A DNA stretch of 64,000 bases from Candidatus Fraserbacteria bacterium (lineage in GTDB: Bacteria > Bipolaricaulota > Bipolaricaulia > RBG-16-55-9 > JAJCYT01), in the NCBI GenBank assembly GCA_029262795.1, contig JAJCYT010000031.1:124001-188000 (forward strand), written 5' to 3'. Of the stretch, positions 8,737-63,469 are shown piece after piece. The notes beneath the pieces were generated by a model that had not been told where the DNA came from, did no database searches, and saw nothing but the letters and a program-made list of their open reading frames with translations. Within the stretch, counting starts at the first letter, position 1. Each line of letters begins with the position of its first letter. The translations under genes were made by a program, and so were the position numbers.

Positions 8737-9561
8737 ATGACCGATGAAGTTGTAAAAGATGTCGAACAGGTGGCTGAGCCTGCCAATTCAATCATTTCTG
8801 TTCGCAATGTGAATAAAATTTTTCCCGGCAAGGAAGGCGATGTGATCGCCCTCAGTGGGTCCAATTTGAAGATTGCGTCAGGAGAATTTGTTTCTTTAAT
8901 TGGGCCTTCTGGTTGTGGGAAAACCACCTTGTTGCGATTGATTGCTGATTTGGAAAAAATTACCTCCGGCGAATTGTTGGTCAATCACAAATCACCAGAA
9001 CGGGCTCGTCTGGATCGTGATTATGGTTACGTGTTTCAAGCCCCTGTCTTATATGAGTGGCGCACGGTGCTTAAAAATGTTGAATTGCCTTTGGAGATTA
9101 TGGGCACTTCTGCCTCAAAGCGAAAGCAAACAGCATCTCGGTTGTTGGAGATGGTCGGCTTAGAACAATTTAAAGAACATTATCCCTGGCAGCTTTCCGG
9201 CGGGATGCAACAGCGTGTGTCGATTGCCAGAGCGCTTTCATTCTCTCCAAGCATTTTATTAATGGATGAGCCTTTTGGTGCATTAGACGAAATCACCCGC
9301 GAGCAGATGCAACAGGAAGTGCTTCGGCTTTGGCGCGAAACACAGACCACAACAGTGTTTGTGACTCACTCCATTTCAGAAGCTGTATTTTTATCTACGC
9401 ATGTGGTAATGATGAGCGCTCGCCCTGGACGAATTACCGAAATTATTGATATCGATTTGCCGCAACCGCGCAATGTGGAAACCCGCGAAAGCGAACGTTT
9501 TTATGAGTTGGTGACCGAAGTGCGTGAAGCCTTGCGGCGTAGTGAACAGGCATCAGGATGA
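8737..9561 (+). CDS. ABC transporter ATP-binding protein (SsuB/TauB/nitrate type)
   Basis: The 274-residue ATPase has Walker A GPSGCGKTT, signature LSGGMQQRVSIARAL, Walker B ILLMDEPFGALDE and the switch histidine in VTHSISEAV. This layout is typical of importers for sulfonates, taurine, nitrate or pyrimidine precursors. The start at 8737 is fixed by a GGAGG site and by the promoter just upstream. The stop overlaps the first permease (ATGA). No substrate-binding protein lies in the operon. The nearby pyrimidine operon makes a pyrimidine or precursor substrate attractive but unproven. Confidence 0.9.
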   Translation: MTDEVVKDVEQVAEPANSIISVRNVNKIFPGKEGDVIALSGSNLKIASGEFVSLIGPSGCGKTTLLRLIADLEKITSGELLVNHKSPERARLDRDYGYVFQAPVLYEWRTVLKNVELPLEIMGTSASKRKQTASRLLEMVGLEQFKEHYPWQLSGGMQQRVSIARALSFSPSILLMDEPFGALDEITREQMQQEVLRLWRETQTTTVFVTHSISEAVFLSTHVVMMSARPGRITEIIDIDLPQPRNVETRESERFYELVTEVREALRRSEQASG

Positions 9562-11456
9562 GGTTTTTACGAAAAGTCCTTCCGGTTTTTGTTGCTTTGG
9601 CCTTTATTTTTGTTATTGGCTATCCCACTGCTTTGCTTATCGGATTAAATAAAGCGCAAAGTGATATGAAGGATCGATCCCGTTGGGAACAACGGTCAGT
9701 GATGCCACTTGCCCCAATGGATTTAGGAAACGCAGACCAATTGCCATTTCTTCAATCGATCCACAATACAGGATTGTTGGTCAACGGAAATCAACCTTTG
9801 TCATTGTCAGCTATCCTCGGCAAAGATGCTGAGCAGAAAGTTGTTTATACAAACTTAAATGCAGATTCTAATGTATCTTTGTTGACGCCAGCTCCACTGG
9901 AAGGTGAGGTGGATGGTCAAAATCGTGTGTTTCATACCGATCGGGCCTTTAGTGATCACCCGCTTTATCTCAATGGACGTTTGTTGAATCCTCATTTTGA
10001 AAAACCGGAAGAAAAGCCGGATGGCGTCATTATTGAATTCAATTTTTCTTCATCTGATGGTGTTTTTATTTTAAATGGGAAATTGTTGGTGGAGGGTGAA
10101 GATTATCATCTGGATGACACTACTCTGGTGACGGCTGAGCCATTGCCCCTTTGGACCAGCGGACAGGAACCTGATTGGGGCCGTCCTTTGCGCGTCAGTG
10201 GAGATTATGCCTGGGCTGATAACCAAACCATTGTGTTGCGAGATCCGCCACCTGTGGGCGCCCGCTTAGAGTTGGCGGCCTCTTTTGTTGCTTGGGCAGA
10301 ACAATTGAGTGGCTCAGTGGATGGTTCCAACCGAACATTCCATTTTGCACAACCCCGACTGGTAACGACTGATCGGGATCGGGTGGTTTACGTCAATGAA
10401 CAACCACTCAATAACTCAGGCACTCGACTTAGAAACGTCAATGATAATGAATTGCAATTTGGTCTGCCTAAGCCGGAAGGCATTATTGTGATGGAGGAAC
10501 GCATTGAACGCGTGTTGCACCAAACACAGCTTTTTCCAGATGACGATTACACCATTGAGGAAAATACGCTCACGCTGGTCAACGCGTTAGATAAAAATCA
10601 ATCCCTGCGCCAATACGATTATCTGATTCTTGACAGTGAGTTCAGTCGTATTGTCCTGGCCAAAGCACCTGAACCTGGGAGTGTGGTCTGGACTGGACAT
10701 TACAAAGTATACGACCGGCCTGGTTGTGGCTTAACGGTATTCGAATGTTTTGTAACATTGCCACAGCATCCTGTGCCGCTGCCACATTGGATTATCACAT
10801 CGCTGCCAGACTTTTTCATTAATAATGCCAGCGTGTTTGGGCAAATTGCTTACACGACGTTTGGGAGTTTTGCCGCATTGGTGATGGGGGGCGTGGTTGG
10901 TTTGTTGTTGGCGTCTTTGTTTGTGCTTATTCGGCCACTGGAGCGTGCGTTTTTGCCGTGGGTGGTGGCTTCACAGACCGTGCCGATTATTGCGCTGGTG
11001 CCGGTGCTGATGCTGATTTTGTCGCAATTTGGCATCACCTTGCAAAGCAGTATTTTACCCACAGCTATTATTGGTGGTTACTTGAGTTTCTTTCCAATCA
11101 CCATTGGCACAGTCAAAGGCTTGCGCTCGGTAGATCCATTGTCGATTGACTTGATGCATTCTTATGCGGCCAACAAATGGCAGATTTTTTTCAAGGTGCG
11201 TTTCTACGCCGCTTTGCCATTTATGTTTGCCAGCTTCAAGGTCGGGGCCGCCGCTGCTTTGGTGGGGGCATTAATTTCGGAAACTGAAACATCAAATTCA
11301 AGTGGATTAGGGTATGAGATTTTAGGGCGGGTGCAGGCCGGTAACGTGGCGGATTTGTGGATTTTGTTCTTAATCTCCGTGCTGATGGGCATTATGTTTG
11401 TCTCAGCCGTGGGTTGGGTCGAGCGTCTATTGGCCCCGTGGATGCGTAAAGTATGA
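9558..11456 (+). CDS. ABC permease with a large extracytoplasmic beta-repeat domain
   Basis: The 632-residue protein has one N-terminal membrane helix (about 7-29), an extracytoplasmic region of about 400 residues, and then a normal SsuC/TauC-type permease core from about 430. The core includes the ATPase-coupling loop DLMHSYAANKWQIFFKVRF. The ectodomain seems to contain two related units (about 115-243 and 250-382). Each has VDGxNRxFH, then a LYLNG/VYVNE turn, then a GEDYH/DDDYT segment, a pattern I associate with beta-rich phage-fibre-like repeats. Usual permeases of this family have about 250-280 residues and no such domain. The gene overlaps both neighbours by 4 bases. Confidence 0.85.
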   Translation: MRFLRKVLPVFVALAFIFVIGYPTALLIGLNKAQSDMKDRSRWEQRSVMPLAPMDLGNADQLPFLQSIHNTGLLVNGNQPLSLSAILGKDAEQKVVYTNLNADSNVSLLTPAPLEGEVDGQNRVFHTDRAFSDHPLYLNGRLLNPHFEKPEEKPDGVIIEFNFSSSDGVFILNGKLLVEGEDYHLDDTTLVTAEPLPLWTSGQEPDWGRPLRVSGDYAWADNQTIVLRDPPPVGARLELAASFVAWAEQLSGSVDGSNRTFHFAQPRLVTTDRDRVVYVNEQPLNNSGTRLRNVNDNELQFGLPKPEGIIVMEERIERVLHQTQLFPDDDYTIEENTLTLVNALDKNQSLRQYDYLILDSEFSRIVLAKAPEPGSVVWTGHYKVYDRPGCGLTVFECFVTLPQHPVPLPHWIITSLPDFFINNASVFGQIAYTTFGSFAALVMGGVVGLLLASLFVLIRPLERAFLPWVVASQTVPIIALVPVLMLILSQFGITLQSSILPTAIIGGYLSFFPITIGTVKGLRSVDPLSIDLMHSYAANKWQIFFKVRFYAALPFMFASFKVGAAAALVGALISETETSNSSGLGYEILGRVQAGNVADLWILFLISVLMGIMFVSAVGWVERLLAPWMRKV

Positions 11457-27898: not shown

Positions 27899-30226
27899 AT
27901 GGCTGAACTTTTAGGGCTAAAATCTGCATTCTCTGAATCACAGGCAGCCGATTTGGCGCAGCAGCTTTATGGTCTGGATGTCACTGCGAAATTATTGACC
28001 GGAGAAATGGATCAAAACTTTCATTTGACTGCTGAATCAGCTGAAGCCTACGTCCTCAAAATCGCCAATGCTTCAGCCAGTGAACCTGTGCTTGATTTTC
28101 AGAATCAGGCCATCGCTCATTTAAATCGGAATTTGGAACAAGATCGTCTTCCTGAAGTTATGGCTGATGTTAATGGGAATTTGATTTCAAGCGTTGAGCA
28201 GAATGGAACACATCATTTGGTCAGGTTGTTGACATTCGTGCCTGGAACATTTTTGTCAGATATTGAGACTCATTCACCGGAACTCATGAAAAGTTTCGGT
28301 GCATTCCTGGGTCGAATGAATCGCGCATTTGAAAGCTTTAATCACCCTGCTGTCCATCGTTATTTGGATTGGGACATGAAGCATGCCAGTTATGTGATTC
28401 GTAAACATCTGGACAAACTTCAGGCTGATCAACGTAGTGTGGTTGAAATGTTTTTGCTCCGCTTTGAAACAGAAGTGCTTCCTGTTTTTCCAGAGCTGAG
28501 AACCAGTGTGATTCATAACGATGCAAATGATTACAATGTGTTGGTCGATGAAACCAACCAAGTTTCAGGTATCATCGACTTTGGCGATATGGTCCACACC
28601 TACACCATTTGTGAACTTGCCATTGGATGTGCCTATGCCATCCTCAACAAAGAACATCTACTTGAAACTATTCTGGAAATGGTGAAAGGTTACCACAAAA
28701 CATTTCCATTGGATAACAATGAACTAGAGATTTTGTTCCATCTAATCTGTATTCGACTTTGCACAAGTGCGGCAATTGCGGCGCATGGTCTGCAACAGCG
28801 CCCCGATGATGAATATTTGCAGATTTCACAAAAGCCTGTGTGGAAGGCGCTTAAACAACTCAACGACATTGATCCACTCCTTGCCACAAATCAGATGAAG
28901 CAAGCGTGTGGTATTGAATTACCTTCAGGTTTGGATGCATCAACTATTGTTGAATTGAGAGATAAACATCTTAATCGCAATTTAAGTGTGGCTTATCAGG
29001 CGCCATTGAAGATCGTTCGGGGCAAAGGCCAGTATCTTTACGATGAATCAGGAAAAGCTTATCTGGATATGGTCAACAACGTTTGCCATGTGGGCCATTG
29101 CCATCCCAAAGTGGTTCAGGCAGGGCAACGACAGATGGCGATGCTCAATACCAACACACGTTACTTGCATGATCGTCTTGTAGAGTTTGCCGAACGTCTT
29201 TGTACGACTATGCCTGATCCCCTCAGTGTTTGTACCTTTGTTTGCACAGGGAGCGAAGCCAACGATTTAGCGTTGAGAATGGCGAAAGCTTACACAGGTG
29301 GTACCGACGTGGTGGTGGTTGAGGGCGCTTATCATGGCCATTTATCCTCGATCATCGACGTGAGCCCATACAAATTCAATCGTCGAGGCGGTGCAGGCAG
29401 ACCTGATCATGTTTATATCACACCGATGCCTGATCCGTATCGAGGCTTGTATCGCAGTGATGATCCAGAAGCGGGCGTGAAATATGGCCAACACGTCAAA
29501 GATTCTATTGATCAGCTTAAAGAGCAAGACCGCAAACTAAATGCCTACTATTGCGAATCCATTCAAGGTGTCGGTGGGCAGATCGTCATGCCAGATGGCT
29601 ACCTCAAAGAAGCTTATTGTCATGTTCGAGATGCCGGTGGGGTTTGCATTGCTGATGAAGTTCAAGTGGGTATGGGACGTGTTGGCTCTCATTTTTGGGC
29701 ATTCGAGACACAAGATGTGATTCCCGATATCGTCACGATTGGCAAGCCACTTGGCAATGGACATCCTGTTGCTGCTGTGATCACGACGCCAGAGATTGCA
29801 TTCGCTTTCAACAACGGCATGGAATATTTCAACACCTTTGGTGGAAATCCTGTTTCATGTGCGATTGGCTTGGCGGTATTGGACGTGATTGAACAAGAAG
29901 GCTTGCAGCAAAACGCACTCGATGTCGGGAATTATTTGATGGATGAATTGAAGACTTTACAGCAGGACCATCAACTGATTGGCGATGTGCGTGGTCTTGG
30001 TTTGTTTATTGGTGTTGAATTGGTATTAGATCGTCAAACGCTTGAACCTGCCACGAAGGAAGCCAACTTCATTTCGGAGTGGATGAAAGATCAAGGTATC
30101 CTTGTCACCACCGAGGGGCCGTTTGCCAATGTGTTTAAGATCAAGCCGCCAATCATTTTCAATAGATCTAATGCGGATTTCTTTGTTCAAAAGCTCGCTG
30201 AAGCATTGAGTCAGTTAGCTGGTTAG
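27899..30226 (+). CDS. APH-type kinase fused to class III phospho-lyase (hydroxylysine or ethanolamine type)
   Basis: The 775-residue fusion starts with an aminoglycoside phosphotransferase-like kinase (about 1-320) with catalytic [10 protein letters not shown] and metal site GIIDFGDM. From about 345 it continues as a class III PLP enzyme with [32 protein letters not shown] and PLP lysine in [10 protein letters not shown]. This second half resembles AGXT2L-type lyases that act on O-phosphoethanolamine or 5-phosphohydroxylysine. The mammalian partners are separate proteins: hydroxylysine kinase and phosphohydroxylysine phospho-lyase. One chain would therefore phosphorylate an amino alcohol and then eliminate phosphate. 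Relatives with an extra M23 peptidase domain exist in other bacteria; it is absent here. Confidence 0.85.
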
Positions 30227-31412: not shown

Positions 31413-31539
31413 AATTTATGTCTAAACTTGAAAAGGATGAAGCTGGCCCTTGATGGCCTTTTATAGAAATTGCTTTCTTGCAGGCTTGGCAATTATTATG
31501 ACTAAAAGCCATTTCAAGCCAGCCATAAGGGGAGGAATC

Positions 31540-33123
31540 ATGCTGCTAAAATCTCAAACTTTTATCGCATCATTGCTGCTGTTTGTGACTTTTGCCTTAT
31601 CAGTTCAAACAGTTCAAGCGCAAACTGTGGCGTTTGTTAACGTTCATGTGATTCCGATGGATTCGGAACGGATTCTGGAAGACCGTACTGTGATCATTCA
31701 AGATGGCAAAATCTCAGACATTGGCCCATCTGATCAATTGATTGTTCCTGATGGCGTAGACATCATAGATGGCGAAGGTGGCTACTTGATGCCAGGATTG
31801 GCCGACATGCACACGCATCTGGGAGTTTTCGATAATGATCCGCGACACTTGTTGCTCTATCTGGCAGAAGGAACGACCACCGTACGAACTCTCACTGGCT
31901 CTCAGTTGGAATTGAACTGGCGAGATCAGGTGCAGCAGGGGGAATTGCTTGGCCCGTCGATCCTGGTTGGTCGCACGATGTTTGGCATGTATCAGGATTC
32001 TATAGGGCTCAATGGTTTTATTTCGATGTTTCGTCTTGGAGTTTTTGCCTTCCCTTTAGTGTTTATAGGGCTGGCGATGTTGCTTGGATTTCTCCCAAGA
32101 GACCTTTTGATAGGACTTGGTGCTTTAGGCATTGGTGTGCTCAGTTGGATACTTCCATATCCGGCCGCCTCGCCAACATTGTCTACACTGCTTGAACGGC
32201 CAGATGTTTTCGTTTCCGAATCTCCGAGCCAGGCGGTAGAAGAAGTACAGCGAATGCATCAGGCTGGCTTTGATTTCTTTAAAGCTTATGACGGCCTGAC
32301 TGAGCTTGAATTTGTTGCAGCGGTGCGCAAAGCAAATGCCTTGGGGTTTTACACACTTGGTCATTTACCCAATCAAATTCCTATGGAAAAAGCTTTTAGC
32401 ACAGGTTTGCAAGAAATTGCTCACATGGATGAGTTATTGTCTTTTCATTGGATAGACTATGATCCTAATGGTGAAAACGATCCTGAACTTTTACGAAAAG
32501 GGTTTTCTGTCAATTTTGAAACGATTCCAGATACTGTCGCTGTTTTACAAGCATACGATGTGTCTGTTGTTGCCAACCTTTCCACTGATGAAGTACTGTA
32601 TCGCCTCGTCTTCGACACACCAGGCGTATTGGCTGGACCTGAGTATGCGGTTATTCGTCCACAGGCCCTTGAGGCGTGGGCGACAACCGGTCGCAATGTA
32701 ACAAGTTTTGCAGAGCAAGGTCCAAACCGCCGTGACGAAGTGCAACCTTTTTTGGAAGAACTGACACTTGCTTTACATGAAGCAGGTGTGGTCATCACGA
32801 TTGGCACAGATTCCAATGTAGAAGGTTGCATCCCGAGTAATATTCATCGAGAATTTGAATTACTAGTCAAAGCTGGACTTAGCGATTATGAAGCACTTGT
32901 TGCTGGCACCAAAGCGGCCAACGAAGTGGCTGGCCGAATGGGCAAAGGAAATCATTTTGGCACCGTTGAGGTTGGCAAACGCGCAGACCTTATCCTGCTC
33001 AATCATAATCCTTTAGAAAATGTGAGCCACACAAGGGATCGAAAGGGTGTTATGGTCCAAGGTGTGTGGCATACTCAAGAAGAATTGGATGCAATGGTTC
33101 AAGCATTTGTTTCAACTTATTAG
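31540..33123 (+). CDS. Exported amidohydrolase with an inserted membrane hairpin
   Basis: The 527-residue protein starts with a signal peptide (about 1-27, ending VQAQ). It has the metal-dependent amidohydrolase motifs PGLADMHTHLG (about 85-95), TLGHLPN, IAHMDELLSF and ITIGTDSNVEG. It resembles imidazolonepropionase- and prolidase-like members. Residues about 165-184 and 187-206 are strongly hydrophobic and look like two membrane helices placed inside the barrel, which is unusual. I chose the ATG at 31540 because GGGGAGG stands just before it and the signal peptide then begins at residue 1. The stop is TAG. Substrate unknown. Confidence 0.8.
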   Translation: MLLKSQTFIASLLLFVTFALSVQTVQAQTVAFVNVHVIPMDSERILEDRTVIIQDGKISDIGPSDQLIVPDGVDIIDGEGGYLMPGLADMHTHLGVFDNDPRHLLLYLAEGTTTVRTLTGSQLELNWRDQVQQGELLGPSILVGRTMFGMYQDSIGLNGFISMFRLGVFAFPLVFIGLAMLLGFLPRDLLIGLGALGIGVLSWILPYPAASPTLSTLLERPDVFVSESPSQAVEEVQRMHQAGFDFFKAYDGLTELEFVAAVRKANALGFYTLGHLPNQIPMEKAFSTGLQEIAHMDELLSFHWIDYDPNGENDPELLRKGFSVNFETIPDTVAVLQAYDVSVVANLSTDEVLYRLVFDTPGVLAGPEYAVIRPQALEAWATTGRNVTSFAEQGPNRRDEVQPFLEELTLALHEAGVVITIGTDSNVEGCIPSNIHREFELLVKAGLSDYEALVAGTKAANEVAGRMGKGNHFGTVEVGKRADLILLNHNPLENVSHTRDRKGVMVQGVWHTQEELDAMVQAFVSTY

Positions 33124-46030: not shown

Positions 46031-47401
46031 TTATGGAGCGTGCATATCATCACTTTGATTTAACAACCAACTGGAAATCAATTCCAGAAAGCCATCCACA
46101 AATTTCTTTGCGAGCGCTGCATATTCTTGCGGGCTGCCGGTGTTGGCAAGTTGGAACAAATGATTGGCACCTTCAAATAAATGAAAGGTGACATTTGTAT
46201 TGCCAGCCGCTTCAAAGCCGATTTCCATGCCTGCCTGATTGGACGCTGCGGGCACTTGCAAATCGAGCGAGCCAAAAATGGCCAGAATCGGGATCTGAAT
46301 TTTTTCCAGGAAAGGCATGGGATCGTATAACGTAAACGAGCGATACCAATTGGACTGAATCAAAGCCAGTTGCTGATCGATGTTGGGAATGCCTGCTTGG
46401 CGGAATCGGTCTACCAACACAGCCCAGTCTTCTTCCGCATCGGTGCTGATGGCTTGATACATAAGGTCCAGCAGTTCTAACTGCAACGCAACAGCTTCTT
46501 CGCTGGCACCTGCGGCACGCATCAGCAATTCTGACTGTTCTTTTAGCAACTGTGTGCCTGTGGTGCCCAGGCCTGCAATCATGACCATAAAGGCGACATC
46601 TGTTGATTGTGCTGCGACCATTGGGCCAACCACACCGCCTTCGCTATGGCCGACAATGCCAATTTGTTTTGGGTCAACCGATGGATGTTGTTTCAAAAAT
46701 TCAATCGCTGATATCACATCCGCCGCGCGATCATCTAAAGTGGCTTCGGCCCAATTGCCAGTAGAACCACCCACGCCACGGTCATCGTAGCGTAACACAG
46801 CGATGCCGTTTTTAGAAAGATGATCTGCAATGGCTTCAAATGTTTTGAAGCCAAAAAAATCTGAATTGCGATCCTGCGGCCCACTGCCACTGACCATCAC
46901 CACAGCGGGGTGTTGGCCTTCTACATTGGGAATGGTCATTGTGCCGGAAAATAAAACCTCATCATTGCGGAATTGGACTTCCTCAGCGCGATACAAAGGT
47001 GGGTATTGGAATGAAGATTCAAGCAATCCATCAGGCGTTCTTAAAGAGATGATGGCAGCATCGTTAGGCAATGTGAACGCTGCCTGCCAGAACAGGTTGA
47101 TGTTTAATCCACCACACACGTCATCCACTTGATTGATATTGGCTGGGCCAGAATGGACCAGCAACTCACCGCGTCCAGGTACAATGCAGTTATTTGGAAA
47201 TGAATAGCGTGTTTGGCGTGAATAATTGGGCCGTTGTACGCTCAGCGACCAGCCAGTGAGATCTACCATTTGATTGGTGATGTTGACAATGCGAATGGTT
47301 TCATCTGTGCTGACTGCTTGTACTTCCTCGATGCTTAACTGTGCTTGAGTTGCCACACTCCATGAAAGCAGCATTGCAACCAATGCGGTAAGAATTTTCA
47401 T
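46031..47401 (-). CDS. Exported lamin-tail domain/alpha-beta hydrolase fusion
   Basis: The 456-residue protein has a signal peptide (about 1-20, cut near TQAQ). A beta-sandwich follows (about 22-110) with the lamin-tail pattern IRIVNITNQMVDLTGWSL and PGRGELLVHSG, then a serine hydrolase. The hydrolase shows VVMVSGSGPQDRNSDF, RYDDRGVGGS, the nucleophile elbow GIVGHSEGGVVGP, Asp in FGSLDLQVP and His in GANHLFQLA. The nearest relatives are exported dipeptidyl or acyl hydrolases. Lamin-tail domains bring exported enzymes to cell surfaces or DNA. Start at 47401 follows GGGAAAGGG. A longer frame exists but lacks a signal peptide. Confidence 0.82.
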   Translation of the reverse strand: MKILTALVAMLLSWSVATQAQLSIEEVQAVSTDETIRIVNITNQMVDLTGWSLSVQRPNYSRQTRYSFPNNCIVPGRGELLVHSGPANINQVDDVCGGLNINLFWQAAFTLPNDAAIISLRTPDGLLESSFQYPPLYRAEEVQFRNDEVLFSGTMTIPNVEGQHPAVVMVSGSGPQDRNSDFFGFKTFEAIADHLSKNGIAVLRYDDRGVGGSTGNWAEATLDDRAADVISAIEFLKQHPSVDPKQIGIVGHSEGGVVGPMVAAQSTDVAFMVMIAGLGTTGTQLLKEQSELLMRAAGASEEAVALQLELLDLMYQAISTDAEEDWAVLVDRFRQAGIPNIDQQLALIQSNWYRSFTLYDPMPFLEKIQIPILAIFGSLDLQVPAASNQAGMEIGFEAAGNTNVTFHLFEGANHLFQLANTGSPQEYAALAKKFVDGFLELISSWLLNQSDDMHAP

Positions 47402-47476
47402 AAAACCCTTTCCCTGAGTTTTTACAGTTTGTGATTCACCCCTTTTGTGAACCAGCCATTTCATTATGTCAAAGAA

Positions 47477-47504
47477 AGAGGACCAAGGCGGACCTTGGTC
47501 CTCT
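47477..47504 (-). terminator. Terminator of the ECF sigma operon
   Basis: A perfect 12-bp stem (47477-47488 with 47493-47504, 4-base loop) is followed on the minus strand by TTCTTTGA. Next to it lies a 12-bp palindrome CCGCTTAAGCGG (47516-47527). Both stand between the propeller protein and the lamin-tail hydrolase. The other bases of this 234-base gap hold nothing I can name. Confidence 0.65.
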
Positions 47505-47635
47505 CGAAAGGGTCTCCGCTTAAGCGGGATGGAAAAAGTTGAATTCAACAGTCTTTTTCAATTTTAAACATCACGTTTTTCTATTGGCGAGATGTTTTTG
47601 ATGCGGAGTCCAAGACCCAATTTAAATCAAATTCT

Positions 47636-49584: not shown

Positions 49585-50766
49585 ATGAGTATCGAAAAAA
49601 CAAAGCGAAAGTTTGGGATGGCCAGCGAACAGGAAATCCTGGATGGCAGAGTGACAGACGTTTATTTTGAAAGAACCCACCAAATTCTTGAAGCAAAAAA
49701 TATCAGCAAGCGCGTCAAAATGGAGATTCGTCTTAAGAGTTTGCCGAATCAATGGACCTGGGGTGTGTTAAGTGGGATCGAAGAAGGACTCAACTTTCTG
49801 GAAGGTCATCCGCTCAATGTGTGGGCATTGCCTGAAGGCACCTTGTTTCGATCACAGGAACCCGTGATGGTAATTGAAGCCAATTATGAAGATTTCGATA
49901 AATTGGAAACTTCTTTGCTCGGTTTCCTGTGTCATGCCAGTGGGATTGCCACGAAGGCGGCGCGTTCGGTCATTGCTGCGGATGGGCGACCTGTGGCCAG
50001 CTTTGGTGCCCGTCGCGCTCATCCTGCCATTTCGCCAATGATTGAACGGTCTGCGTTTATTGGGGGCTGCAATGGGGTATCAACGGTATTGGCGGCAGAT
50101 TATTTGGGTGTCAAACCAGTTGGTACCATCCCGCATGCGTTGATTTTATTGGTTGAAGATTCCAGTAAAGCTGTCTCCATGTTTGATGAGGTGATTGATT
50201 CTTCTGTGCCGCGAGTGGTGCTGGTAGACACGTTTGGCGATGAAAAATTTGAAGCACTGGCCAATGCAAACATGTTGGGCGAAAAGCTTTATGCTGTTCG
50301 CCTGGACACCCCATCATCACGCCGTGGGAATATGTTGGAAATAGCACGGGAAGTTCGCTGGGAATTGGATATTCATGGCCATAATCATGTCAAAATCTTT
50401 ATCACCGGTGGCTTGGATGAAGACACGATTCCGCCTCTGAATGAAGTGGCCGATGCGTATGGCGTTGGCACCTCTATCTGTAATGCCAGGGTGTTTGATT
50501 TTGGTTTGGATATTATCGAGATTGAAGGCAGGCCAGTGTCGAAGCGCGGTAAGTTTTCTGGAACAAAACAACTTTATATCTGCCCTCAATGCGGCGAACG
50601 TTTGGTCAAGCTTTGGGATGATGAAAATGCGATTTGTCCAAACGATGGCCAAAAAGCGCTGCCTCAATTGGAGCAAGTGATGGATCAGGGCAAATTGTTG
50701 ATTGACCTCCCTACACCCCAGGAGATTCAAGCATTTGTTTTAAAGCACCTTCCTAAAACACTTTAA
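49585..50766 (+). CDS. pncB: Nicotinate phosphoribosyltransferase, archaeal-like with zinc ribbon
   Basis: The 393-residue enzyme makes nicotinate mononucleotide from nicotinate and PRPP. It has an N-terminal LDGRVTDVYFERTHQIL, the barrel FGARRAHPAISPMIERSAFI with the catalytic His, SGGLDEDTI-like ITGGLDEDTIPPL, and GVGTSICNARVFDFG. The C-terminus holds a zinc ribbon CPQCGERLVKLWDDENAICP, two CxxC-type pairs seen in the archaeal and some bacterial forms. The upstream ribosome site is weak. It is divergent from the ECF sigma gene. Confidence 0.9.
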   Translation: MSIEKTKRKFGMASEQEILDGRVTDVYFERTHQILEAKNISKRVKMEIRLKSLPNQWTWGVLSGIEEGLNFLEGHPLNVWALPEGTLFRSQEPVMVIEANYEDFDKLETSLLGFLCHASGIATKAARSVIAADGRPVASFGARRAHPAISPMIERSAFIGGCNGVSTVLAADYLGVKPVGTIPHALILLVEDSSKAVSMFDEVIDSSVPRVVLVDTFGDEKFEALANANMLGEKLYAVRLDTPSSRRGNMLEIAREVRWELDIHGHNHVKIFITGGLDEDTIPPLNEVADAYGVGTSICNARVFDFGLDIIEIEGRPVSKRGKFSGTKQLYICPQCGERLVKLWDDENAICPNDGQKALPQLEQVMDQGKLLIDLPTPQEIQAFVLKHLPKTL

Positions 50767-50905: not shown

Positions 50906-51679
50906 CTATGAATGTTTTCCTTCATTTTGCCGTTCCGGATGATGCGGTGAGATTTCGTGGACGTGGACCAGTTTTTTCCTCAAACGCAGAGCGAGGAAAC
51001 CGACTAAAACCATCACACCGATGAGGCCCCAGGTGAAGGTCATGGCAAGGAAGTTGAACAAGCCGTGGGCGATCATGGAGAAGAACAGGCCACGTTGGAT
51101 CAACTTTTCACCTTTGACGGGGTCCATGAATTTGGCCAGCCCCATAGGATAACTCCAGAGAGAAGCGAACAGCATGTGAGCGGGAACAGACAACAAAGCT
51201 CGTAAGAAAAAGGTGGAAGCGAGTTCGTTATCCAATTGAGCTGAGAATAAATAACCGACATTTTCCAGGGCGGCAAATCCTAATGCTGAAGCCGCGCCGT
51301 AGACCATGCCGTCCATGGGTTCGTTGAATTCTGGATGACCATAGACTTTCCAGCGGACCACAAAATATTTACAAAACTCTTCAGCGGGACCAACCACCAA
51401 GAACATGAGCAAGGCGATATAAAGCGTACGGCTTTGTGATAAGGAATCGGCAACAAATGCGGTGACAATGGGCGTGCCGATCAGTTCTAGAATGATTGCA
51501 GGGATGGTGGACGCCATGCCCCAAAGGAAAATACGGAACACCATCATGCGAGGCTCGGGTTCCCATTTATCACGTTCGTACATGAACCAAAGCCAGAAAA
51601 TACCAGGAGCCATGCCCAATAAAAATACCATGAAGAAGGTGATTTGATTGGGAGCCATGTCTAGAGAAAAAGGAGCCAT
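50906..51679 (-). CDS. PrsW-family intramembrane metalloprotease
   Basis: The 257-residue membrane protein has about seven hydrophobic segments and the PrsW motif set: the Glu-Glu pair in VGPAEEFCKYFVVR, the second motif GFAALENVGYLFSA, and the His motif AHMLFASLWSYPMG. A KWEPEPR stretch follows the first helix, as in relatives. PrsW in Bacillus cleaves the anti-sigma factor RsiW. An ECF sigma gene and its membrane partner lie 1.5-3 kb away, so a functional link is possible but only inferred. A second start at MAPNQ, seven codons in, is equally possible. Confidence 0.88.
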   Translation of the reverse strand: MAPFSLDMAPNQITFFMVFLLGMAPGIFWLWFMYERDKWEPEPRMMVFRIFLWGMASTIPAIILELIGTPIVTAFVADSLSQSRTLYIALLMFLVVGPAEEFCKYFVVRWKVYGHPEFNEPMDGMVYGAASALGFAALENVGYLFSAQLDNELASTFFLRALLSVPAHMLFASLWSYPMGLAKFMDPVKGEKLIQRGLFFSMIAHGLFNFLAMTFTWGLIGVMVLVGFLALRLRKKLVHVHEISPHHPERQNEGKHS

Positions 51680-51723: not shown

Positions 51724-53655
51724 TTAAGCTCGGAAAAGATTTTTCAACAAAAACAACACATTGGCGGGACGTTCAGCAAGGCGACGCATGAAGTACGGGT
51801 ACCATTGCGTGCCGTAGGTGACGTAAACACGTACCTGATGGCCGGCCTCCGCAAGCTTTTGTTGCAAATCACGGCGGATGCCGTAAAGCATTTGGAATTC
51901 GTAATGATCGGTGGATATTTTTTCCTGTTGAACCAAATCACACACCCAGCGCAACACCTTTTCATCGTGAGAGGCGATGGAGGTATAAACACCATTTTGA
52001 AGTGCTTCGGGAGAAAGTGATTGTTGAATGAGTTGCGCATATGCCTTATCTACATCACTTTTTTGCTGGAATGCGATATTTTCAGGTTCCAGATAAGCAC
52101 CTTTGACCAAGCGAACTGGTGCGCCCATTTTGATCAATTGTTCCAGGTCGTCAAAGGTTCGCATCAAATTGGCCTGGAGGACGGTGCCCACCTGCTGTCC
52201 ATATTGCTGATGATATTTGGCAAACAATTCCAGCGTGGTTTGAGTGTATGGAGAATCTTCCATGTCGATGCAGATTTTGGTGTTGCTGGTTTGGGCGTAA
52301 GCCAGAATCTTGGTTAGTTCGGCATCACAAACATCTTTACCGAGGGACAGACCGATTTGGGTCGGCTTAATCGACACAGTGGTGTCCACGCCGGATTGGC
52401 CGATGGCATCGAGCAAGTTCAAATATTTGTCCGACGTTTGTCTGGCAATGAGAAGATCTTCCGTGTGTTCGCCCAGGTGGTTGACAGTTGCTTGAATATT
52501 GTTTTGGTTCAGTTGCCGCACCACTTCGATGGCTTCTGGAAATGTTTCTCCAGCGACAAATCGTTGCACCAGTTTTTTTGCGATGGGCCAGGATGAAAAC
52601 GCCTTTTGTGCTTGTTCATTTTCGGACAAAGCAAGGAACATCAGTTTTAAAGGTGGGGTAGACGTGTTTTTGGATGTTGTAGTATTGTCCTGCTTAGGTG
52701 CAGTCGGTATAAAATCTTCATGAATTGCTTTGCTTTGTGTCTGGCCCAATATTTTTTGGCGGTCATGGATTCTCTCGATGAATTGATGCAGTTTTTCTTC
52801 ATCAAACCCTTTGCCCTGCCACTGGTTGTTGAGGTCAAACTGACGACTGCCAATGCGAATCATCAGGCGATTGTTTTCCATCCATAGGTTGACCTGATTG
52901 AGTGGGTGTTCAATCCCGATACCAAGTTTGCCCAAGGCTTTGTCGATGAGTTCAGGCAGCCAATCATCCATTTTTTGAAACAGCCAGCCAACGCCTGTAG
53001 GTAAGGTGGATTTTTCACCACTGAGTTTGTCACGCAACGCATCGAGTTCCTGGCGCACGTATTTGCCGAGTTCGATCACCAGTTTATCATCATGGGTGAT
53101 GATTAAATTTAACGTTTGATCTTGAGTGGTCAATCGCATCGATTCTTTGCGCCAGATAATTTCATATAAAAGCACTTCGCCAATGCCTTTGATATCGCGT
53201 TCGCCAATGGTCATCCACTCCTGAGTAGAAGGATCGAGCTTTTCACGAATTGCATTGGAAACCACGATTTGACCGGAGCGTGCTTCATCGGCCAAACGCT
53301 TGGTGAAGTTGACGGCCAAGCCAAACAGATCGTCGTCTTCTTCAATCACTTCGCCGTGATGAATGCCTACACCAACCAGCAAAGGGGTGCTGGGATGGTT
53401 TTGCGTATGCGTGTTTGCATGGCTTTGCAAATCAATTGCAGCCGACACTGCATCAGACGCATTTTTAAAGCGAGCCATAGCCCCATCGCCATAGGTTTTA
53501 ATAAGTTGGCCCTGATAGGTTTCACAGGCATCCTGCACCATTTGGTTGTGAAGCTGCAACAAATTAAATGCCTGTTGATCGCCACGCTTGGCCGTGAACT
53601 CTGTAAAATCACGGATGTCGCTGAACAAAACATTGGTGTTGGCTTGGGCACCCAT
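51724..53655 (-). CDS. Class III adenylate cyclase domain fused to proline dehydrogenase
   Basis: The 643-residue protein has two catalytic parts. Residues about 5-165 are a class III nucleotide cyclase: metal Asp13 (FSDIRDFTEF) and Asp57 (YGDG), adenine-selecting Lys53 and Asp109, and transition-state Asn116/Arg120 in LAVNFTKRLADEA. All key residues for cAMP synthesis are present. Residues about 175-330 are an unassigned helical linker. From about 350 to the end is a flavin proline dehydrogenase barrel: VSIKPTQIGLSLG, CIDMEDSPYTQTTLELF, LQANLMRTFDDLEQL, RLVKGAYLEPEN, TSIASHDEKVL, FQMLYGIRRDLQQ and the C-terminal RRLAERPANVLFLLKNLF. AAGGAG precedes the ATG at 53655. No P5C dehydrogenase domain is attached. 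Confidence 0.9.
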   Translation of the reverse strand: MGAQANTNVLFSDIRDFTEFTAKRGDQQAFNLLQLHNQMVQDACETYQGQLIKTYGDGAMARFKNASDAVSAAIDLQSHANTHTQNHPSTPLLVGVGIHHGEVIEEDDDLFGLAVNFTKRLADEARSGQIVVSNAIREKLDPSTQEWMTIGERDIKGIGEVLLYEIIWRKESMRLTTQDQTLNLIITHDDKLVIELGKYVRQELDALRDKLSGEKSTLPTGVGWLFQKMDDWLPELIDKALGKLGIGIEHPLNQVNLWMENNRLMIRIGSRQFDLNNQWQGKGFDEEKLHQFIERIHDRQKILGQTQSKAIHEDFIPTAPKQDNTTTSKNTSTPPLKLMFLALSENEQAQKAFSSWPIAKKLVQRFVAGETFPEAIEVVRQLNQNNIQATVNHLGEHTEDLLIARQTSDKYLNLLDAIGQSGVDTTVSIKPTQIGLSLGKDVCDAELTKILAYAQTSNTKICIDMEDSPYTQTTLELFAKYHQQYGQQVGTVLQANLMRTFDDLEQLIKMGAPVRLVKGAYLEPENIAFQQKSDVDKAYAQLIQQSLSPEALQNGVYTSIASHDEKVLRWVCDLVQQEKISTDHYEFQMLYGIRRDLQQKLAEAGHQVRVYVTYGTQWYPYFMRRLAERPANVLFLLKNLFRA

Positions 53656-53742
53656 GCAGGCTCCTTATTGAAGATGTGTTCATAAGTATATAGAACGCGA
53701 AAACGGAAAACACATGGTCTGTGAAAATGGAAGGATTTGTCG

Positions 53743-53789: not shown

Positions 53790-53861
53790 GGGCCCATAGC
53801 TCAGCGGCAGAGCATCCGGCTCATAACCGGCGGGTCGCAGGTTCGATCCCTGCTGGGCCCA
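53790..53861 (+). tRNA. tRNA with CAT anticodon (elongator Met, or Ile2)
   Basis: The 72-base cloverleaf has a 7-bp acceptor stem (GGGCCCA with TGGGCCC) and discriminator A. The D arm is GCTC/GAGC, the anticodon loop is CTCATAA with CAT at 53822-53824, and the T arm is GCAGG-TTCGATC-CCTGC. The 3' CCA is not encoded. A paired first acceptor base rules out the initiator tRNA. Elongator methionine and the lysidine-modified isoleucine tRNA cannot be separated by eye. Confidence 0.93.
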
Positions 53862-53970
53862 CACCTTTTCTTCAAAGTTGAATATTTTTAACATCTCTTT
53901 TTCAATCATTCGCAATTGAGTTTCGGTTTCAGGTAGTCTTTAGGCACTTTGACCTGTTATGGAGGGCAGC

Positions 53971-60177: not shown

Positions 60178-61224
60178 ATGATTTTCCAGAAGCAATTTTC
60201 AATGGCTTTTATTATTTTATTGATGCTTGGATTAGGATTGATGGGCTGTAACCATAAAAAACTTATCGAAACCGGATTTGCTTTAAGTGGAAGTGACCCC
60301 ATATTGGCGCGTGGTGCCAAGGGCGACTGGGATGGGGCACGAATTGATCCTGGTGGCATGGTTTTTCATGATGGTCAGTTTCATATGATTTTCAATGCTT
60401 TTTCCAAATGGCCAGGCAATGTTGAGATGGGCTATGCTGTTTCCAGCGATGGTATCCATTGGGAAAAACAGGGTGATGGCCCCGTCTTCAAAACCAGTGA
60501 TGTGCCTTATGCTGAAGTGGCAGCATCGGCCTCCAGTTTGTTGGTCGAAGATGATGGCACCTGGGTGCTCTACTTCCATGTTTGGCAAACCCGAAGTGCA
60601 AGCCTCGGCAATGGTTTCATTGGACGTGCAACAGCAGCACAGCCTCAAGGGCCGTGGACAGTTGATCCCGAACCTGTGTTGCGCATGAGTGAAGATGAGA
60701 ATGAATGGGATGGTGGACAAGTCTCGCAGGCCAACGTCCATAAAACCGAAAATGGTTATCTGATGTATTACACCGGCGCAGATAAAAAGGGCTATATGCG
60801 TATCGGTTTGGCCACCAGTGCGGATGGCATTCACTGGGTAAAGCATGATGATCCTGCCACTACGGAAGTGTCTTATGCAAACAGCGATCCTTTACTGGCT
60901 CCTAAAAGTGATTCATGGGAGAGCAATGGTATTTATCAGTCCCGCGTTGTGGTTACACCGGATGGCTGGATTATGCTCTACAAAAGTTTTGGCCTCTTTC
61001 CACAGAACAACGGCCTCGGTTTTGCCAGCAGTGAAGATGGGATTAACTGGGTGAAAGTAGAACAAAATCCGTTGATTTTTCCAAATATTGTGCCAGGACA
61101 GGGTGGGTTTGGTCAACCAGCACTTCTCTACGAAAAGGAAACTTATTGGCTCTATGCCGAAAGCATTTCTCTGAGTGGGTCAGCAGGGATCTTTTTAATT
61201 AATAACGAAGCCCCGATCTTTTAA
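60178..61224 (+). CDS. Lipoprotein with glycosidase-like five-blade propeller
   Basis: The 348-residue lipoprotein has a type II signal peptide ending LMGC (lipobox). Repeated blades of the GH43/GH32/GH130 superfamily style follow: DPGGMVFHDGQFHMIFNAFS, GYAVSSDGIHWEKQG, LLVEDDGTWVLYFHVWQ, GYLMYYTGADKKGYMRIGLA, TSADGIHWVKHD, and a final SEDGINWVKVEQNPL. The catalytic acids of true glycosidases are not obvious. A clear paralogue lies at 62444-63469. It probably sits on the outer face of the membrane. Confidence 0.82.
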   Translation: MIFQKQFSMAFIILLMLGLGLMGCNHKKLIETGFALSGSDPILARGAKGDWDGARIDPGGMVFHDGQFHMIFNAFSKWPGNVEMGYAVSSDGIHWEKQGDGPVFKTSDVPYAEVAASASSLLVEDDGTWVLYFHVWQTRSASLGNGFIGRATAAQPQGPWTVDPEPVLRMSEDENEWDGGQVSQANVHKTENGYLMYYTGADKKGYMRIGLATSADGIHWVKHDDPATTEVSYANSDPLLAPKSDSWESNGIYQSRVVVTPDGWIMLYKSFGLFPQNNGLGFASSEDGINWVKVEQNPLIFPNIVPGQGGFGQPALLYEKETYWLYAESISLSGSAGIFLINNEAPIF

Positions 61225-62403: not shown

Positions 62404-62446
62404 AAACAGGGTTGAACATTTTGCGTTCAACCCTGTTTTGTTTTTA
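62404..62446 (+). terminator. Terminator of the DUF6263-like gene
   Basis: A perfect 14-bp stem (62404-62417 with 62425-62438, 7-base loop) is followed by TTGTTTTT. It overlaps the last codon of the convergent propeller gene. Confidence 0.92.
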
Positions 62447-63469
62447 CCTAAATGAGCCTGAGAAGGTCGATACAAAAATATCTGTACCACCATCAAACGT
62501 ATCAGCTTCCAAATAGAAATAATATGTGCCATTTCGATAAGCCAATTCTGGATACCAAGGGTTGCGATTGACGTCCGAACGTGCCAGCACAGGTGTGGGC
62601 TGGATTTTCTCCCAGTTGATGCCATCATCACTGGTGGCAATGTTATAGCCTTGATTGCGGAAGTTGCCATTAAATGAACTGTAGAGCATCACCCAGCCGT
62701 CTGGCGTATTGATCACGCGCGGGTCCTGGATGTTCACTTCCCAATCTTGTGTTTTTCTTAGGATGGGATCACTTTTTGAAAAAGTGCCACTGGTGGAAGG
62801 ATTGTTGTATTTGGTCCATTCAAGCCCGTCATCACTGGTGGCCAGACCGATGGCCATGTCACCTTCATCGTTTCCGGCGGCGTAGTAGAGAAAGTAACCC
62901 CCATCTGTTTTGATCACATTGGTGATCGCCAAAAAGTTTTCGTCCCATTCGCCATCACTGCCAGGTTCCAGCAAGACTTGATCATCCATCACCCAGGTTG
63001 AGGTTGGGGTTTGTGCGGTGGCCCGAAGCACGCCCAAGGTGGGATTACCCTGGCTGTTAAACGGTGCGAAATAAAACACCCAGGTGCCGTCATCCTCCAC
63101 GATGGCGCTGGTTAACAAGGCAAGGCGGACACCATCAAACGGCACACTGCCATGAGAGAACACGGGCTGTTCCATCACCTCGGTCCATTGAACGCCATCT
63201 TCTGAAGTGAGATAACCCACTTGTGAAGGCTGAGGCCAACCTCGGTAACCATTACGAAACATATGAAACTGTCCGTCATGAAACACCACGGCACCAGGTG
63301 CGGTATGTCGAGCGTCCCATTCGTTGTTGGCACCGTGGCGAACCACAGGGCGGTTGAGATCAAACTCAAATTTCACCAAGTTTTCCTGAGCTTTGATGTC
63401 TGCATTGTCGCTGGCTGAAAATAAGAAAAACATCCCTAAACATAAAACACAAATCTTCAAATATCGCAT
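62444..63469 (-). CDS. Exported glycosidase-like propeller, paralogue of the 60178 gene
   Basis: The 341-residue protein has a signal peptide (about 1-20) without a lipobox; the sequence near its end is FSASDNADI. Blade motifs match the lipoprotein paralogue almost in order: PGAVVFHDGQFHMFRNGYRG, GYLTSEDGVQWTEVM, AIVEDDGTWVFYFAPFN, MAIGLATSDDGLEWTKYN and NTPDGWVMLYSSFNG. One copy is lipid-anchored and the other is probably released or anchored only by its signal. The MerR-like gene lies upstream on the same strand. Confidence 0.82.
   Translation of the reverse strand: MRYLKICVLCLGMFFLFSASDNADIKAQENLVKFEFDLNRPVVRHGANNEWDARHTAPGAVVFHDGQFHMFRNGYRGWPQPSQVGYLTSEDGVQWTEVMEQPVFSHGSVPFDGVRLALLTSAIVEDDGTWVFYFAPFNSQGNPTLGVLRATAQTPTSTWVMDDQVLLEPGSDGEWDENFLAITNVIKTDGGYFLYYAAGNDEGDMAIGLATSDDGLEWTKYNNPSTSGTFSKSDPILRKTQDWEVNIQDPRVINTPDGWVMLYSSFNGNFRNQGYNIATSDDGINWEKIQPTPVLARSDVNRNPWYPELAYRNGTYYFYLEADTFDGGTDIFVSTFSGSFR

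Follow-up and report, generated by a model that had tools for sequence, protein, structure and literature searches.

Organization of the fusion locus

In the window, the whole 64,000-nucleotide stretch of DNA that was analyzed, an open reading frame on the minus strand (51724..53655) begins with an ATG at 53655, closes with a TAA whose last base is position 51724, and comprises 643 codons with no internal stop. The encoded 643-residue protein consists of a class III adenylate cyclase, a conserved module, a tether, and a proline dehydrogenase (ProDH). The sole domains reported by the Pfam scan are Guanylate_cyc at residues 6-165 (E = 1.3e-17) and Pro_dh at residues 376-635 (E = 7e-39). The initial annotation had described a cyclase joined to ProDH in one chain, omitting the minus strand, and the intact reading frame and the two Pfam domains bear this description out. 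The start codon is preceded, across a 5-nt spacer, by the Shine-Dalgarno sequence AAGGAG (53661..53666, minus strand), which scores 6/6 when set against the genes of the window.

Directly upstream and divergent from the fusion gene lies a tRNA-Met gene detected by ARAGORN (53790..53862, plus strand). tRNA genes are frequent points of rearrangement; nothing here points to a role of this one in the origin of the fusion. Downstream, after a gap of 44 nt, a co-directional gene for a PrsW-like intramembrane protease (50906..51679, minus strand) is possibly co-transcribed with the fusion gene; its NCBIfam match, NF033739, reaches 128 bits and is thus under the cut-off of 225. A nicotinate phosphoribosyltransferase gene (49585-50766, plus strand) is found within a few kilobases of the fused ProDH. 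In two relatives, G008 and G003 (loci L038 and L040), this gene is also near ProDH, in an arrangement different from that of the window, and ProDH is the last gene of a co-directional run. Because nicotinate phosphoribosyltransferase is near ProDH in all three genomes, ProDH may have stayed close to its ancestral location, with the cyclase as the arriving partner.

The cyclase half and its associated module

The catalytic domain of the cyclase occupies residues 1-168 (53152..53655, minus strand), as delimited by Pfam PF00211, the family alignment, and Foldseek. Judged by its aligned residues and modeled fold, the N-terminal half of the fusion is a class III cyclase. Asp13, Lys53, Asp57, Asp109, Asn116, and Arg120 are invariant in the alignment of 21 family members, and their positions are exactly those previously assigned to the metal aspartates (Asp13 and Asp57) and to the Lys53/Asp109 and Asn116/Arg120 pairs. 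Among 33 invariant columns, the cyclase half differs at only 1, and in the tree it groups with the cyclase of G008, a genome of the same order (support 97/92). The catalytic fold is shared with Ma1120, a class III adenylyl cyclase of Mycobacterium avium (PDB 4wp8; Foldseek TM 0.91), and the adenine-selecting Lys/Asp pair and the metal aspartates of the two proteins match in the alignment. Unlike Ma1120, the fusion cyclase continues into an unnamed 130-residue module and then into ProDH. BLUF adenylate cyclases are also present among the PDB matches.

The module (residues 171-302; 52750..53145, minus strand) is predicted by AlphaFold2 as a confident stand-alone fold (pLDDT 86) with the order beta3-alpha/alpha/beta3-alpha, and the model suggests that it is built of two beta3-alpha units. 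It has no Pfam family and no sequence relative in the PDB, and the fold searches gave no PDB or viral match at E <= 0.001. Within the sample of the phylum (100 genomes, one class), the module is present in 48 genomes, 47 besides the source genome. The open reading frames that carry it are mostly 310-350 residues long and also contain the cyclase wherever positions were compared, so that the module apparently always occurs in cyclase reading frames. When the cyclase profile was run on 40 genomes of other phyla, the catalytic domain alone was matched and never the module. The unfused cyclase-module proteins of the phylum, such as G008:C60 (327 residues), share 47% identity with the entire N-terminal half of the fusion, including the module, whereas they stop at the equivalent of residue ~303 and lack ProDH. 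Since the module is common to unfused cyclases, it belongs to the cyclase family and not to the fusion. What had been regarded as a 150-residue linker is in fact a folded module of ~130 residues (171-302) followed by a disordered tether of ~30 residues. The cyclase half thereby reveals an unnamed folded module that is so far known only from the cyclases of one bacterial phylum.

The proline dehydrogenase half

The ProDH domain spans residues 335-643 (51724..52653, minus strand) and was recognized by Pfam PF01619, a match to NCBIfam ProDh_Thermus, Foldseek, and alignments. Both the N-terminal helical arm (alpha A-C) and the RRLAERPAN motif are present; in the AlphaFold2 model, the arm appears as helices 335-344, 347-355, and 357-363 ahead of the barrel. 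The substrate-binding RR-x-x-E motif corresponds to Arg624, Arg625, and Glu628. ProDH of Thermus and Deinococcus align with this half of the fusion at E values of 1e-54 to 1e-58, and Arg624 and Arg625 align with Arg288 and Arg289 of Thermus thermophilus ProDH, which bind proline (PMC6017737). The earlier statement that the ProDH motifs are kept therefore holds. The match to NCBIfam ProDh_Thermus scores 269 bits, under the equivalog cut-off of 500, and by sequence the domain is placed in the wider Pfam ProDH family and not in the ProDh_Thermus equivalog. The monofunctional ProDH of the Thermus/Deinococcus type (2g37/2ekg and 4h6q) have the whole barrel, the helical arm, and RR-x-x-E in common with the fused domain, and 2g37/2ekg match it with a Foldseek TM of 0.92 at 35-40% identity. 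In contrast to the fusion, no known monofunctional member has a cyclase in front.

Of 92 columns that are otherwise invariant, the fused ProDH differs at 13 and the other sequences at 0-5, and the fused ProDH sits on a long branch in the tree. A check with nicotinate phosphoribosyltransferase indicated that the lineage is divergent in general, and the divergence of the fused ProDH may reflect either decay or this wider trend. T. thermophilus ProDH remains highly active with MBP fused to its N terminus and can do without helices A and B of the arm (PMC6017737). The activity of the MBP fusion indicates that ProDH can work with a partner at its N terminus.

The junction

The two folded halves are joined by a tether at residues 303-334 (52654..52749, minus strand), where the coding signal is low. 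Residues 308-331 are predicted to be disordered, with a pLDDT of ~33 across them. Codons 300-338 show values that a former spacer would be expected to give (GC3 0.33; codon score at the 1.7th percentile of coding windows), and the tether is probably a one-time intergenic spacer. The junction contains two homopolymers (A6 at codon 300 and A5 at codon 329), and its other frames have stops at codons 312 (TGA), 320, and 336. No terminator- or promoter-like site was found on its coding strand. None of the in-frame starts in the junction has a Shine-Dalgarno sequence, while 44 of the 49 window genes show at least three Shine-Dalgarno bases near their start; among the internal translation starts checked, none was supported as the beginning of an independent ProDH. 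We estimate that a spacer of ~36 codons at 39% GC would be open in the ProDH frame in ~9% of cases by chance. The junction DNA is single-copy and lies in the middle of a 380-kb contig. Split or frameshifted genes were not noticed among the open reading frames of the window, and 1 internal stop was found in about 50 family matches in the source genome. The initial annotation had named a frameshift or an assembly join at the linker as grounds for doubting the fusion. The single-copy, mid-contig, and in-frame position of the junction answers this in part, and a junction indel retains a low probability.

The AlphaFold2 run, which used a 36-sequence alignment and a monomer, gave confident folds for the cyclase and ProDH with an overall pTM of 0.57, and the relative placement of the domains is undefined in the model. 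Because the tether is predicted to be disordered, it would be a poor transmitter of signals, and the earlier suggestion that the linker may carry a signal finds no support. A signaling helix or a fusion-specific linker was likewise ruled out, since residues 171-302 form the module of the unfused cyclases and residues 308-331 are predicted to be disordered.

Distribution of the fusion

Among the 100 genomes of the phylum, both halves occur in one frame, as a full-length match, only in the source genome. The cyclase–ProDH domain order was found in 0 of the 99 others, which rules out a conserved fusion family in the phylum. A joint search of both domains for a conserved fusion order, the check proposed earlier, thus yielded no second case, and the concern raised with it, homologs in which one half alone is kept, applies to all other genomes of the phylum. 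The proposed check was framed for Chloroflexota, an assignment that found no confirmation: a phylum represented by 100 species in a single class is at odds with Chloroflexota. A scan for ProDH motifs across 84,980 species gave at least 595 candidates; among the best 80 of these, not one match continues across the cyclase. No record among 72,556 plasmids covers 80% of the fusion protein, and a contig scan with the single fusion protein as query gave no matches.

An unfused ProDH, about 310 residues long, is present in most members of the order. G008, G010, and the source genome are the only genomes of the order in which the module-cyclase was found. In other families of the phylum, the module-cyclase is present and ProDH was not detected. 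Outside the source genome, the cyclase and ProDH genes of the phylum are separate and mostly do not co-occur. In the neighborhoods examined in relatives, the two genes are never adjacent, and adjacency as the source of the fusion was accordingly not found there.

Comparison with known fusions

Class III cyclases occur in combination with a wide range of sensor domains and with a few enzyme partners. LipJ (Rv1900c; PDB 1ybt/1ybu), in which an alpha/beta hydrolase is joined to a class III cyclase, offers a precedent for tying a cyclase to a metabolic-type enzyme, and its cyclase half matches that of the fusion. However, the partner in LipJ is an N-terminal hydrolase, whereas the partner here is a C-terminal ProDH. 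The fusion contains no hydrolase domain (73 bits in the LipJ-type test, against a cut-off of 800), and a LipJ-type lipase/cyclase identity was ruled out on this ground. PutA, which combines ProDH with P5C dehydrogenase (P5CDH) and in some forms has an RHH DNA-binding domain at its N terminus, likewise joins ProDH to another function. In contrast to PutA, the fusion has neither a P5CDH domain nor an RHH domain, and P5CDH is a separate gene; with Guanylate_cyc and Pro_dh as its only Pfam domains, the protein is not a PutA. The initial annotation knew of no described cyclase–ProDH fusion, and our search of open-access papers found none. What appears to be new is ProDH as the enzyme partner of a class III cyclase, which is undescribed in the papers searched.

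Proline pathway and cAMP network of the source genome

The fused ProDH is the sole ProDH of the genome, and P5C dehydrogenase is encoded elsewhere in it (TIGR01236, 794 bits). With only one ProDH and a separate P5C dehydrogenase, the pathway would be interrupted if ProDH lost its function, and proline oxidation in the source genome probably relies on the fusion.

The same genome (G000, loci L136-L149) encodes 15 class III cyclases, including the fusion, and 22 cNMP-binding domains. The 14 other cyclases and the cNMP-binding domains imply that cAMP has readers and a network to act in. Many of the cyclases are joined to TPR or NB-ARC/AAA regions. The architectures seen are cyclase-TPR, NB-ARC/AAA-TPR-cyclase, BTAD-cyclase-TPR, and 2TM-cyclase.

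Probable origin and proposed function of the fusion

With moderate confidence, we regard the gene as a real, probably recent, lineage-specific read-through fusion that would yield a bifunctional, co-localized protein. A cyclase typical of the phylum, consisting of the catalytic domain and its C-terminal module, would have landed directly upstream of the sole ProDH gene, and the intervening spacer would have turned into the in-frame, disordered tether of ~30 residues. The chain would dimerize via the cyclase domain to give two complete active sites, in each of which Asp13 and Asp57 from one chain and Lys53, Asp109, Asn116, and Arg120 from the other would convert ATP to cAMP. The FAD-dependent ProDH barrels would oxidize proline and so supply P5C to the P5C dehydrogenase encoded elsewhere. 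That the halves are translated as one chain, that both are active, and that the joint brings any benefit is what we infer from this arrangement, and the main consequence would be fixed 1:1 co-expression and co-localization. For example, docking of ProDH at the quinone pool would carry the cyclase to the membrane. The tolerance of ProDH for an N-terminal fusion, the intact pathway, and the presence of cAMP readers together favor such a bifunctional, co-localized protein, with cyclase and ProDH activities that are largely independent. Its occurrence in one genome, with no second example that would show selection for the joint, weighs against this reading, as do the low codon score and the homopolymers of the junction, the departures of the fused ProDH from invariant columns in a lineage that is divergent in general, and its ProDh_Thermus score under the cut-off.

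It is also conceivable, although unlikely, that the protein is a sensor–effector fusion in which proline binding, flavin redox state, or membrane docking directly sets the output of the cyclase, so that cAMP reports proline oxidation. Sensor-cyclase fusions are common, flavin photoreceptors of the BLUF type drive cyclases, Escherichia coli PutA shifts its membrane affinity upon flavin reduction, and the cAMP network of the genome is large. However, the tether resembles no signaling helix, ProDH lies C-terminal to a cyclase-module unit that is complete in itself and functions in relatives with no ProDH attached, the two genes show neither conserved co-occurrence nor conserved adjacency, and a second instance of the fusion was not found. 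Allosteric control by proline or flavin state is possible, with nothing in its favor beyond the physical joint, and rigid mechanical signaling through the linker is less likely than co-expression and co-localization; the disordered tether leaves room for possible control via membrane docking or domain contacts. Rather improbable is a read-through fusion that is real yet neutral or short-lived, has no functional effect, and includes a partly degenerate cyclase or ProDH. Its restriction to one genome, the relative divergence of the ProDH half, and the spacer-like junction would fit such a case, whereas the retention of the six cyclase residues and of the ProDH substrate motif, the nearly complete match of the cyclase half to the invariant columns, and the dependence of the genome on this one ProDH argue against it.

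A sequencing or assembly artifact, in which adjacent cyclase and ProDH genes seem fused because a junction indel or base error hides a stop, is more improbable still. An indel error in the A6 or A5 run could mimic a fusion, given that one of the other frames has a TGA at codon 312, and the stops at 312 and 320 would yield a cyclase of the usual length; the weak coding signal of the junction and the separate genes of every relative point the same way. On the other hand, the spacer would seldom be open in the ProDH frame by chance, none of the in-frame starts in the junction has the Shine-Dalgarno sequence that is usual in the window, the window and the genome show little sign of broken genes, and the junction is single-copy and mid-contig. 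We therefore retain the read-through fusion as the preferred reading. If its halves communicate, a central catabolic flavoenzyme would serve as the sensor for a second-messenger enzyme, linking amino acid use to cAMP. Without coupling, too, it would be an example of a read-through fusion that places a signaling enzyme at a metabolic one.

Other genes of the window

In an ABC transporter permease (9558-11456, plus strand), the BPD_transp_1 domain is preceded by ~440 residues that look beta-rich and for the most part have no Pfam match. One chain combines an APH-type phosphotransferase with a class III aminotransferase (27899-30226, plus strand), and another combines a Lamin tail domain with an alpha/beta hydrolase (46031-47548, minus strand). 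An amidohydrolase (31450-33123, plus strand) matches Pfam in two separate parts (residues ~105-124 and 431-539), and two apparently hydrophobic, membrane-type segments are inserted in the middle of the enzyme. Finally, two divergent secreted proteins with GH43/GH32-like five-bladed propellers (60178-61224, plus strand, and 62444-63469, minus strand) are encoded near each other on opposite strands.
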